DNA of 64,000 nt, taken from positions 62,001-126,000 of the forward strand of contig NZ_BMPH01000013.1 in assembly GCF_014647495.1 (NCBI RefSeq), written 5' to 3'. A program made the translations under genes and the position numbers. This DNA comes from Glutamicibacter protophormiae (lineage in GTDB: Bacteria; Actinomycetota; Actinomycetes; Actinomycetales; Micrococcaceae). Below the pieces are notes generated by a model that was given only the letters and a program-made list of their open reading frames with translations, was not told where the DNA came from and searched no databases. Shown piece after piece: positions 27,726-33,345 of this stretch (positions are counted from its first letter, which is position 1; each line of letters starts with the position of its first letter).

Positions 27726-28781
27726 TCAAACCTTCAAGGAGCTGGAAAGGTGTTCGCGCAGCGTCACCGGGGTCGACTCAGTCCACCATGATTCCGGGAC
27801 TGCTTGGGGGTAGAGCTGACGCGCGTCTTTGCCCAGCAGAAGGCGCAAGGACGGGATGACGGTCGAAGGCAGTGCGCGGATCTCCTGGCCGGGCCGCAGC
27901 TCACGCAGCCGCATTTCGATCGGAACCGTGTGCTGCTTGGGAACAACGTTCTTGATCTGGCTGATTTTCTCCAGAAATTCCGTGCTTTCGCGTCGGTGCG
28001 GAAAATAGGCGACCGGCCCGTCGGCGGCGATGGAGCTGATCCATTCGCGGTAGGGCTCCTCGTGGATCAGCCCGTCGGCGACCATGGCGGAGCCGATCAG
28101 GAGCGTCGGCTCGGTGAATCGTTCGGCCACCGGCTGGGTCGAAAGCCATTCGAACTTGTGCTGCGCGAACTTGATGCCCAGCTCGGCCATGCGGCGCTGG
28201 GTCGCAGGGGAAACCAGCAGCGCGGAGACGATCAGCAGCCGCCCTTCGCGGGCCAGCTGGCGCAGCCGATGCCACATGGCCAGGCCCATGGCGCTGCGCG
28301 CCGCGGAATTCCTCGCTCGAGCGCGGACCAGCGGGGTCGGTTCCCCGGCCACCAGCTGGTTGATCAGTGCCAGCGTGGCCAGGCCGTCATCGATGATGAT
28401 GACTTCTTTGGCCTTCACCCCGGCCAGCAGTGCTCGCTGGACCTTGCCAGAGTAGGCATCCCCCGCGACGAAGCGGTCAGTGGAGTATTTCGGCGCAGGA
28501 GGCCTGCGGGAAGCCCGCATGAATTCCACGCCGGCCGGGGCCTTCGACAGCAGCGCCTGGGTCGTGGCTTCCAGCGGCATGCCCTGCCTCGGCACGATGC
28601 GTACCTCGTGGCCCAGCAGCCCGGCCGCGTGGGTTTCCACCGCGGAGAGCAGCTGCAGCGGGGACTCCACCCAGACCGAGGCCGCGCCGAAGCGCGGTCG
28701 CGGCACCTCGGAGGTATCGCGGCGGGACAGGTTCATGGACATGGAACGGGCGATTCCTTCGCTGCGGACGGCGGAAGTCAT
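27726..28781 (-). CDS. Sialyltransferase-like glycosyltransferase
   Basis: The 351-residue protein carries VWVESPLQLLSAVETHA near residue 36 and IIIDDGLATLALIN in the middle, with an acidic-acidic-Gly motif, and later YFPHRRESTEFLE. These fit the (D/E)(D/E)G and HP-type motifs of bacterial sialyltransferases (GT52/polysialyltransferase-like), although the second motif reads PHR. It has no membrane segment and is probably cytoplasmic. Its ATG overlaps the stop of the upstream transferase by 4 bases. The family assignment comes from motif reading only. Confidence 0.6.
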   Translation of the reverse strand: MTSAVRSEGIARSMSMNLSRRDTSEVPRPRFGAASVWVESPLQLLSAVETHAAGLLGHEVRIVPRQGMPLEATTQALLSKAPAGVEFMRASRRPPAPKYSTDRFVAGDAYSGKVQRALLAGVKAKEVIIIDDGLATLALINQLVAGEPTPLVRARARNSAARSAMGLAMWHRLRQLAREGRLLIVSALLVSPATQRRMAELGIKFAQHKFEWLSTQPVAERFTEPTLLIGSAMVADGLIHEEPYREWISSIAADGPVAYFPHRRESTEFLEKISQIKNVVPKQHTVPIEMRLRELRPGQEIRALPSTVIPSLRLLLGKDARQLYPQAVPESWWTESTPVTLREHLSSSLKV

Positions 28782-31225: not shown

Positions 31226-32119
31226 TTAGCCGTCGACGCGGCGCAGGCGGGACAGCGGTGCCAGCTCGCCCGGGAAGACCTTCTTGACGCCGTCGCCCAT
31301 GGCTTCTTCCAGGATGCGGATGTCGCGGATCAGCGCGGCGAAGCCCTTCGGCTCGAGGCTGGACGCCTGGTCGGAGCCCCACATGGTGCGGTCCAGGGTG
31401 ATGTGGCGCTCCACGGTCACCGCGCCCAGGGCGACGGCGGCCAGCGAGATCTGCAGGCCGCGCTCGTGGCCCGAGTAGCCCACCGGAACCTGGTAGCGGT
31501 CGCGCAGGGTCTCGATCATGCGCAGGTTGGCCTCTTCCGGAGGCAGCGGGTAGGTGCTGGTGGCGTGCATCAGCACCAGGTTGTTGGTGCCCAGGGTCTC
31601 CACGGCCTTGTCGATCTGCTCGATGGTGGACATGCCGGTGGACAGGATGATCGGCTTGCCGGTTTCGCGCAGGGCGGTGAGCAGCTCGATGTCGGTGACC
31701 GAGGCGGAGGCTACCTTGTGGGTCACCGCGCCCTGCTCCTCCATGAACTCGACCGATGGGACGTCCCACGGGGAGGCGAAGGCGTGCAGGCCCTTGGAGG
31801 CGGCGTAGGAGATCAGTTCCTTGTACTGCGCGGCGTCGAACTCCACGCGGTAGCGGTAGTCCATGTAGGTCATGTCACCCCACGGAGTGGAGCGGATCTT
31901 GTCGCGCATGTCCATCGGGGTGGAGATCTCCGGGGTGCGCTTCTGGAACTTCACCGCGTTGGCGCCGGCCTCGGCGGAGATGTCGATCAGCTGCTTGGCG
32001 ATTTCAATGTCGCCGTTGTGGTTGATGCCGATCTCGCCGATCACGTAAACCTGCTGTCCTGCGCCGAGCAGGTTTTCGCCGATGGCTACCGGCTTGATGT
32101 CAGTGGTAATAGAGGTCAT
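31226..32119 (-). CDS. NeuB-type nonulosonate synthase, no SAF domain
   Basis: Condenses phosphoenolpyruvate with a hexose derivative to a nine-carbon nonulosonate. The 297-residue TIM-barrel has VYVIGEIGINHNGDIEIAKQLI, NAVKFQKRTPEI, FASPWDVPSVEFME, ILSTGMSTIEQID and PVGYSGHERGLQISLAAVALGA, all NeuB family hallmarks. It stops at about GELAPLSRLRR, so the C-terminal SAF (antifreeze-like) substrate lid of ordinary NeuB (about 340-350 residues) is missing. The start is ATG 32119 with AAAGG upstream; the frame stays open further upstream only as a shadow of the previous gene. Product could be Neu5Ac, Kdn or another nonulosonate. Confidence 0.88.
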   Translation of the reverse strand: MTSITTDIKPVAIGENLLGAGQQVYVIGEIGINHNGDIEIAKQLIDISAEAGANAVKFQKRTPEISTPMDMRDKIRSTPWGDMTYMDYRYRVEFDAAQYKELISYAASKGLHAFASPWDVPSVEFMEEQGAVTHKVASASVTDIELLTALRETGKPIILSTGMSTIEQIDKAVETLGTNNLVLMHATSTYPLPPEEANLRMIETLRDRYQVPVGYSGHERGLQISLAAVALGAVTVERHITLDRTMWGSDQASSLEPKGFAALIRDIRILEEAMGDGVKKVFPGELAPLSRLRRVDG

Positions 32120-32130
32120 GGTATTGCCTT

Positions 32131-33345
32131 TCAGTGGGTGAAACTTGGGAAACTTTTGGCTGCGGCTTCGGCGTCGCTGCGGGCTGCGAGCACCAGCTCG
32201 GCCACCTCGCGCACCGCCCCGTGCCCGCCGTTGCGGGACAGGTTCAGTCGGGCCGCCTGGGCGACACGAGGCTGGGCGTCGGCGACGGCGACCGGCCAAC
32301 CGACCAAGGCCATGGCGCCCAGGTCGTTCACGTCGTTGCCGACGTAGGCCACGCGGGCCGGGTTGATCGACTCGTCGGCCAGCCAGCGGGCCAGGTATTC
32401 GGCCTTGTTCTCGATGCCGTGCGCCACTTCGACCTTCAGCTTGGCGGCGCGGGCGGCGACCACGGGGTTCGTCTCCTTGGACAGGATCAGGAACTTCACC
32501 CCGGCGGCGCGCAGCCGGGAGACGCCCATGCCGTCCGAACGGGAAACCCGTACGGTTTCGGTGCCGAACTGGTCGACGTAGGCAGTGTCCGGGGTGTGCA
32601 CCCCGTCGAAATCGGTGACGACCGCGTCCACCAGCACCGGGTCCGGATGCTGTTCCTCCTGCAGGGAGGCCAGCATCAGGTCCGCTTCGGTGTCGATGTC
32701 GATTCCGTGCTCGGCGGGCACCTCTTGGATCGCGACCCGGCCGAAGAATCGGTGGTTTGCTGCCAAGAATCCCGCAGAATCCATGGCGTAGAACGCGCCG
32801 GTTTCGCGGAAACGCTGCTCGCGGTCCTGCCGGCGCGGACGAACCGACTTGTCGTGGCCTACCGCCTGGGCGAGCCCGGCGGAATCCAGCGACCAGTGGA
32901 ATCCATGGTCCGCGACGGCGGCGAAGCTGACGTCCAGCTCGCCGCGCAGCACCCGGTTGACTGCCGCGTCGAGATCCGTCGGATCGATGAACGGGCTGGT
33001 GCACTGGATGAAGACGGTCGCCTGCGGCAAGGCCGGTTCGCGTTCAAGCACGTGAACCAGGACGGATTCGCTGGTGGCGGTATCGCCGGCGATTTCTGCC
33101 GGGCGGTCCACCACGCGGGCCCCGTAGGACAAGGCTTCGGCCTTGATCCCGGGATGGTCGGTGCTCACCACAACATCGCTGACTGACGCTGCGGCCTGGG
33201 CGGATTCGATGGCGCGTCCCAGCAGGGACTTGCCATGGATCCGGCGTAGGTTCTTAAGCTCGATGCCCTTGGACCCTCCCCGTGCGGGGATGATCGCCAG
33301 GACCTGCGGCTGGTTGGTGTTGCTCACGGGTTCGACGTTAATCAC
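32131..33345 (-). CDS. CMP-nonulosonate synthetase fused to HAD phosphatase
   Basis: The 404-residue protein has an N-terminal acylneuraminate cytidylyltransferase domain (about 1-225; LAIIPARGGSKGIELKNLRRI, VVVSTDHPGI, FIQCTSPFIDPTDL, RFRETGAFYAMD). It continues into a KdsC-type HAD domain (about 235-400) with all four motifs: DFDGVHT, Ser in LILSKE, Lys in IENKAEYL and GNDVNDLGAM. The phosphatase could therefore be active. The same layout exists in animal CMAS. It is the first gene of the operon, 11 bp ahead of the NeuB gene. No UDP-GlcNAc 2-epimerase is nearby, which suggests a 9-phosphate route such as Kdn. Confidence 0.88.
   Translation of the reverse strand: MINVEPVSNTNQPQVLAIIPARGGSKGIELKNLRRIHGKSLLGRAIESAQAAASVSDVVVSTDHPGIKAEALSYGARVVDRPAEIAGDTATSESVLVHVLEREPALPQATVFIQCTSPFIDPTDLDAAVNRVLRGELDVSFAAVADHGFHWSLDSAGLAQAVGHDKSVRPRRQDREQRFRETGAFYAMDSAGFLAANHRFFGRVAIQEVPAEHGIDIDTEADLMLASLQEEQHPDPVLVDAVVTDFDGVHTPDTAYVDQFGTETVRVSRSDGMGVSRLRAAGVKFLILSKETNPVVAARAAKLKVEVAHGIENKAEYLARWLADESINPARVAYVGNDVNDLGAMALVGWPVAVADAQPRVAQAARLNLSRNGGHGAVREVAELVLAARSDAEAAAKSFPSFTH

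Follow-up and report, generated by a model that had tools for sequence, protein, structure and literature searches.

Within a 64,000-nucleotide stretch of the Glutamicibacter protophormiae contig NZ_BMPH01000013.1 (positions 62,001 to 126,000; here called the window), two neighbouring genes on the minus strand are predicted to direct the synthesis of an activated nonulosonate, Kdn (2-keto-3-deoxynononic acid). The upstream gene (33345-32131) starts with GTG and encodes a fused enzyme of 404 aa, with a cytidylyltransferase domain at approximately residues 13-230 and a haloacid dehalogenase (HAD) phosphatase domain at approximately residues 238-391; it is a predicted cytidine monophosphate (CMP)-Kdn synthetase and Kdn-9-phosphate phosphatase. 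The second gene (32119-31226) follows after 11 bases and encodes a 297-aa NeuB, which is predicted to form Kdn-9-phosphate from mannose 6-phosphate and phosphoenolpyruvate (PEP). A sequence-only reading of the window had described such a pair, a short NeuB without the SAF lid next to a cytidylyltransferase-HAD fusion, and domain scans confirm both the pair and its exact coordinates. NeuB matches PF03102 with 262.7 bits over all 241 profile positions, whereas the scan detected no SAF family in this protein, which terminates 18 residues past the PF03102 match. Against TIGR03569, the equivalog of N-acetylneuraminic acid (Neu5Ac) synthase, it scores 251.8 bits, below the cut-off of 399.65, with the match ending at profile position 270 of 329. 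The fused enzyme matches PF02348 (CTP_transf_3) at residues 17-165 with 83.3 bits, and its best matches in the PDB are 3mmz (a HAD, residues 238-391, 154.6 bits) and 1qwj (a CMP-Neu5Ac synthetase). NeuB is the sole PF03102 match in the genome (3.83 Mb, 99.99% complete). Its nearest named relatives are from Glutamicibacter uratoxydans and G. soli (98% each), and a comparably close NeuB (E<=1e-60) was found in 24 of 396 sampled genomes of the phylum, its own genome counted. Several relatives are labelled N-acetylneuraminate synthase in public records.

Eighty related loci were fetched, and the HAD domains of all those with a tblastn HAD match (75 relatives) were aligned, together with that of the Glutamicibacter protein, to BT1713, which we take to be the Kdn-9-phosphate phosphatase of Bacteroides and whose chain is labelled acylneuraminate cytidylyltransferase in the PDB. 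At the positions of D10, D12, T54, K80, D103, D104 and D107, the same letter is found in at least 75 of the 76 domains. The sole exception is the domain from Schumannella (locus L046), with D12 replaced by G, K80 by P and D104 by T. The HAD domain had been said to carry all four catalytic motifs, and this holds in that the positions are kept relative to BT1713, with Ser in place of T54 in motif II and Asn in place of D103, the first Asp of motif IV. Furthermore, 75 of the 76 domains retain E56 and K67, whereas two KdsC-type chains in the PDB have R/S or R/D here. BT1713 is also represented in the PDB by the variants E56A and E56A/K67A, so these two residues have been singled out experimentally. 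Their conservation argues for a nonulosonate 9-phosphate rather than 3-deoxy-octulosonate (Kdo) 8-phosphate as the likely substrate; judged by its residues, the HAD domain would not separate Kdn-9-phosphate from Neu5Ac-9-phosphate. A plasmid search with BT1713 returned 41 records, and among the matches listed most were KdsC or unnamed HADs.

The choice of aldose was approached through the active site of NeuB, for which the Glutamicibacter protein and 32 relatives were aligned to the NeuB of Neisseria meningitidis. E25, K53, Q55, K129, S132, S154, Y186, S213, H215, E234, H236 and D247 are kept in all 33 SAF-less proteins, and with them the metal and PEP positions; for positions outside the published list of site residues, these roles are our assumption. 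The aldose pocket is changed throughout: N74 is a gap, F112 is replaced by W and N184 by S in 33 of 33. T110 is replaced by S and D214 by G in all of them as well, and E134 by S in 32. The published site list comprises E25, Q55, N74, T110, F112, K129, N184, Y186, S213, H215, E234, F288 and R314 (PMC6795526). According to the same paper, N-acetylmannosamine (ManNAc) is held at its N-acetyl group by Arg314, a residue of the SAF-like domain (PMC6795526). The absence of the SAF domain together with the changed pocket thus fits an aldose without an N-acetyl group, and is suggestive of such a substrate for this NeuB.

The window holds 54 open reading frames (ORFs) of at least 250 aa, part of which were scanned for families; the neighbour scan covered ten long ORFs between 20301 and 43067, the operon excluded. 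None of these ten encodes an epimerase or an acetyltransferase, as had been claimed for the vicinity, and two of the ten have no family; nor did they include any dehydratase, aminotransferase, acetyltransferase or epimerase of legionaminic or pseudaminic acid synthesis. Genome-wide, the neuC-type UDP-GlcNAc 2-epimerase family PF02350 gave no match, while the same profile finds a match in 11 of 14 control genomes. A profile search for PF07221 was also negative in this genome, and phosphomannose isomerase is present. In the 80 loci with flanks of up to 8 kb, tblastn (E<=1e-10) found neither any homologue of six actinobacterial PF02350 proteins nor of the Azospirillum proteins LegB, LegC, NeuC, LegH and PtmE; in further loci beyond these 80 the same search, in which NanE was not sought near the cassettes, returned only the Azospirillum locus itself (L133).

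The pair heads a run of six minus-strand genes, of which the remaining four, absent from the list of the sequence-only reading, are glycosyltransferase-like. They encode a GT2 glycosyltransferase of 332 aa (31125-30127; PF00535, 121 bits), a polysialyltransferase-family protein of 450 aa (30130-28778; PF07388, A-2_8-polyST, 92.5 bits with a cut-off of 23.3), a protein of 351 aa that reaches the cut-off of no Pfam or NCBIfam family (28781-27726) and a putative glycosyltransferase of 412 aa with DUF6716 (27724-26486; PF20471, 386.4 bits). Two junctions within the run are 4-base overlaps, and the GTG start of the PF07388 gene overlaps the stop of the preceding gene; we infer that the six genes form one operon and are co-transcribed. 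DUF6716 homologues are also found near NeuB and CMAS-HAD genes (CMAS denoting the cytidylyltransferase part) in Streptomyces loci and in Sinorhizobium fredii. The AlphaFold2 model of the 351-aa protein, built from a 42-sequence alignment (pLDDT 90.2, pTM 0.86), is GT-B-like. Foldseek ranked the Neisseria lipooligosaccharide sialyltransferase 2yk4 first (E 3.1e-7, TM 0.37, rmsd 16.8), followed by plant UDP-glycosyltransferases, the polysialyltransferase 5wcn at rank 4 (TM 0.48) and the Pasteurella sialyltransferase 2ihj at rank 6. These matches are insufficiently close to assign a specific transferase type, and going by the model the protein is plausibly a CMP-sugar transferase and a candidate CMP-Kdn transferase. 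Its homologues occur in 70 of the 80 loci, with E39, H262, R263 and other residues invariant across the 42 sequences. Just downstream of the six genes lies a myo-inositol-1-phosphate synthase gene (PF01658, 25104-26189), a homologue of which is present in 27 of the 80 loci.

The fused enzyme is found in 73 of the 80 relatives, and the arrangement is thus not special to this genome. Twenty-three of the loci are from Streptomyces, and 21 of these have CMAS and HAD in one ORF. Homologues of the GT2, PF07388-like, DUF6716-like and 351-aa proteins are also present in 20 of the 23; the remaining three loci (L059, L066 and L069) start at the edge of a contig. As in the Streptomyces-type loci for Kdn teichulosonic acid, NeuB, a CMP-nonulosonate synthetase and polymer glycosyltransferases are found together in Glutamicibacter. 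From their gene content, and from gene names in papers, the Streptomyces loci appear to correspond to SCO4873-4882 of S. coelicolor. There SCO4881 is called NeuB (PMC2367054), and SCO4873-81 is said to contain neuAB and to be PhoP-dependent (PMC2267785); another paper, with reference to Ostash et al. 2014, gives SCO4873-4882 as the cluster for teichulosonic acid (PMC13011467). That Kdn occurs in actinobacterial wall polymers, as had been stated in the sequence-only reading, is borne out by reports on the teichulosonic acids of Streptomyces (PMC11481543, PMC7831098) and Promicromonospora citrea (PMC6801904).

Comparison of the loci revealed variants of the gene pair. Beside the loci with CMAS and HAD in one ORF, two of the 80 have them split between frames (L029, L073), three have a CMAS without HAD (L040, L045, L058; no HAD was found in their genomes with query P0002) and two have no CMAS in the fetched stretch. 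In one of the latter, L059, the contig ends at NeuB, and just a weak partial HAD match was obtained from the genome; the other, L083, has a 56% identical CMAS-HAD elsewhere in the genome. In four of the 73 (L036, L037, L043, L057) the frame runs stop-free into NeuB. Three-domain ORFs are found in Microtetraspora (L043:6801-8867) and Nonomuraea (L131:6994-9219), and this fusion of all three domains in other genomes is counted in favour of the Kdn pathway. The linkers of these two contain no ATG and just GTG codons, which makes a separate start of NeuB improbable. The three Arthrobacter cases keep a Met in the linker and could give rise to both forms. Microtetraspora belongs to Streptosporangiaceae according to NCBI, and 41 of 100 genomes of this family gave a match. 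Thirty of these 41, counting the genome of the query itself, have a single uninterrupted ORF over the whole 689 aa (loci L136-L165), while the other 11 have one in-frame stop (six genomes) or two pieces (five). This ORF of about 690 aa is a candidate single-protein CMP-Kdn synthase. In a NeuB tree the three-domain state requires at least three changes and HAD absence at least seven; the tree was built by a quick method from 95 of 138 NeuB rows (43 near-duplicates were dropped, and L057 was too short), has several long branches, and takes HAD absence in far relatives from tblastn only.

Three further arrangements were observed. The Sediminivirga locus (L040:7233-8879) encodes a CMAS-NeuB fusion with no HAD between the two, nor any in the genome with query P0002. 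In Schumannella (L046:6440-8026) the HAD domain is fused yet ruined, with DFDG changed to DFGE and the motif III Lys to Pro, which echoes animal CMAS. A plasmid of Azospirillum thermophilum (L133:5970-7913) has a short NeuB together with a HAD protein, the N-terminal half of which no longer matches a cytidylyltransferase; the pair is divergent to a legionaminic-type operon. This case, a short NeuB and HAD beside legionaminic-type genes, was considered as a counter-example and set aside because a neuB of 1077 bases and a cytidylyltransferase of its own are part of the operon, with the short pair on the opposite strand.

Taken together, the gene pair probably encodes all the dedicated steps to CMP-Kdn for a wall polymer. 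The SAF-less NeuB would condense mannose 6-phosphate and PEP, and the resulting Kdn-9-phosphate would pass to the fusion, whose HAD domain would remove the 9-phosphate and whose cytidylyltransferase domain would activate Kdn with cytidine triphosphate (CTP). The GT2, polysialyltransferase-like, GT-B-like (27726-28781) and DUF6716 proteins may then build a Kdn wall polymer of the teichulosonic acid type. The route from mannose 6-phosphate via Kdn-9-phosphate and Kdn to CMP-Kdn was already proposed in the sequence-only reading, and the HAD sites, the missing PF02350 and the conserved gene set support it.

Several observations weigh against the Kdn pathway. With 88.7 bits the HAD domain falls below the cut-off of 180 of KDN-9-PPhBT (NF058599) and is therefore described as working like that equivalog family, not filed in it; matches of the HAD region to KdsC models are likewise below cut-off. 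Among solved structures the nearest NeuB without SAF is 6ncs, which carries the label N-acetylneuraminic acid synthetase, and the changes of T110 and E134 to S also count on this side, as do the three of 80 loci without a HAD domain and the one with a ruined HAD. No Kdn chemistry for the genus was found in the literature searched, where no search named Glutamicibacter; under the same limit no assays of these proteins were found, and for the wall chemistry of Arthrobacter VKM Ac-2550 no wall-polymer paper was found by title. The genomes with the single ORF had been expected to be epimerase-free; PF02350 is present in 30 of 30 and NanE over cut-off in seven of 30, so the argument from absence fails for them and the substrate there is assigned by homology alone. 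On a dedicated epimerase elsewhere in the Glutamicibacter genome, which the sequence-only reading had named, in combination with activity only on ManNAc, as refuting it, the outcome is divided: PF02350 is absent, but a NanE-type epimerase is encoded on another contig (G000:C5:145952-146533, L002; 190.9 bits; NCBIfam 275.4, cut-off 189). A ROK kinase gene lies just upstream of it, with partial NanK matches below cut-off, and these two were the only gene pair seen in the genome that could supply ManNAc 6-phosphate. Since this compound can be made, a route through Neu5Ac-9-phosphate is possible. In such an animal-type route NanE would convert N-acetylglucosamine 6-phosphate to ManNAc 6-phosphate, NeuB would form Neu5Ac-9-phosphate, the HAD domain would dephosphorylate it, and CMP-Neu5Ac would feed the polysialyltransferase-like protein. 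PF07388 is a family of polysialic acid transferases, and the HAD residues do not tell the two 9-phosphates apart. The distribution of epimerases was surveyed in the genomes of 50 of the 80 loci, picked for spread with the other 30 left out. PF02350 is present in 20 of these 50 NeuB-bearing genomes, and NanE in 13 at E<=1e-50, 16 over the curated cut-off and 25 at E<=0.001. Neither was found in 26 (NanE at E<=1e-50) or 25 (curated cut-off); PF07221, sought in those 26 and in the Glutamicibacter genome, was positive in three of 27. By curated cut-offs all three families are thus absent from 23 of the 50 genomes, including that of G. uratoxydans (L004) with its 98% identical NeuB, although in six of them NanE gave weak matches that stay under the cut-off. 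At the locus, 18 of these 23 genomes encode an ordinary CMAS-HAD, while in L040, L046, L058, L059 and L083 it is missing, altered or unlinked. Such absences depend on profile sensitivity, most of the genomes are drafts, and routes outside these families would be missed. Given the relatives that lack all three families, the location of NanE on another contig and the Kdn in the Streptomyces polymer, we consider the Neu5Ac route unlikely.

It is less likely still that the pair makes a different 9-phosphorylated ulosonate from another phospho-aldose. A Methylomagnum plasmid (L169:2874-8486) encodes a 54% identical SAF-less NeuB and, as a protein of its own, a HAD; next to them are split transketolase-like genes and genes for a class III aminotransferase and a short-chain dehydrogenase/reductase, perhaps for an unusual ulosonate, which indicates that NeuB/HAD pairs may serve other sugars; all HAD family scores being below cut-off would also agree with this. 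The Glutamicibacter operon and the ten scanned neighbours, however, contain no sugar-tailoring gene, and in Streptomyces a matching set of genes is found. The HAD domain could also be merely structural, like the HAD half of animal CMAS, which is thought to be inactive, with an unrelated phosphatase acting in its place. Loci without HAD (L040, L045, L058) or with the ruined one (L046) do retain a 69-72% identical NeuB, and a study of Prymnesium parvum reports no clear homologue of the phosphatase (PMC6200933). As 75 of 76 domains, the Glutamicibacter sequence included, retain the catalytic positions, we regard a structural role as very improbable.

On this evidence the sugar behind the N-acetylneuraminate synthase annotations of several relatives is more likely Kdn than Neu5Ac, which alters the predicted wall polymer of many soil actinobacteria. 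A bolder proposal, which we hold to be about as likely as not, is that SAF-less NeuB and CMAS-HAD constitute a distinct CMP-Kdn synthase dedicated to mannose 6-phosphate, in which loss of the SAF lid marks the dropped N-acetyl group, and which was repeatedly condensed into one protein, the roughly 690-aa form of the Microtetraspora family having three sites and converting mannose 6-phosphate, PEP and CTP to CMP-Kdn. While the gene pair itself is of a known kind, the one-protein form is the freshest result and lies outside the window. Searches of open-access literature listings gave no paper describing a HAD phosphatase and a CMP-Kdn or CMP-sialic acid synthase in a single protein, and this form may therefore be undescribed. 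As compact tools, both the gene pair and its one-protein form would allow CMP-Kdn to be produced from inexpensive starting materials. Furthermore, the natural versions with intact, ruined and missing HAD offer a ready test of how the need for a phosphatase step can be lost, a question raised by animal CMAS too.

Among known systems, vertebrate CMAS has the same domain order, a cytidylyltransferase followed by a KdsC-like HAD, and the two halves of the fusion match the PDB entries 1qwj and 3ewi, presumably both from mouse; the difference is that the HAD half of CMAS is thought inactive, whereas the motif positions of the Glutamicibacter HAD are kept. Bacterial NeuB and NANS proteins with a SAF domain share the NeuB barrel and its metal and PEP positions, and differ in that the Glutamicibacter NeuB lacks SAF and has a changed aldose pocket. 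Plasmid pSfreNXT3c of S. fredii NXT3 also encodes a NeuB without SAF match and a CMAS-HAD fusion with DUF6716 adjacent, and DNA similar over most of this stretch is found in two more Sinorhizobium records. This NeuB, however, is just 34% identical to the Glutamicibacter one, and on our reading of the ORFs the genes nearby are capsule-export-like instead of wall-polymer transferases. A Kdn polysaccharide is reported from SVQ293, a strain of S. fredii other than NXT3 (PMC7845648), and the occurrence of the three genes in this species also speaks for the Kdn pathway. Bacteroides thetaiotaomicron takes the same three chemical steps, with BT1714 as synthase, BT1713 as phosphatase and a CMP-Kdn synthetase (PMC6200933). 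BT1713 has the HAD catalytic and E56/K67 positions in common with the Glutamicibacter fusion, but is a separate protein of 164 aa. The Streptomyces loci have a 60-63% identical NeuB and the same gene set, whereas gene order and strands differ and the four downstream proteins are just 26-45% identical. Judged by these comparisons, the Glutamicibacter pair appears to belong with the Streptomyces-type clusters for Kdn teichulosonic acid, with a phosphatase step that looks Bacteroides-like.

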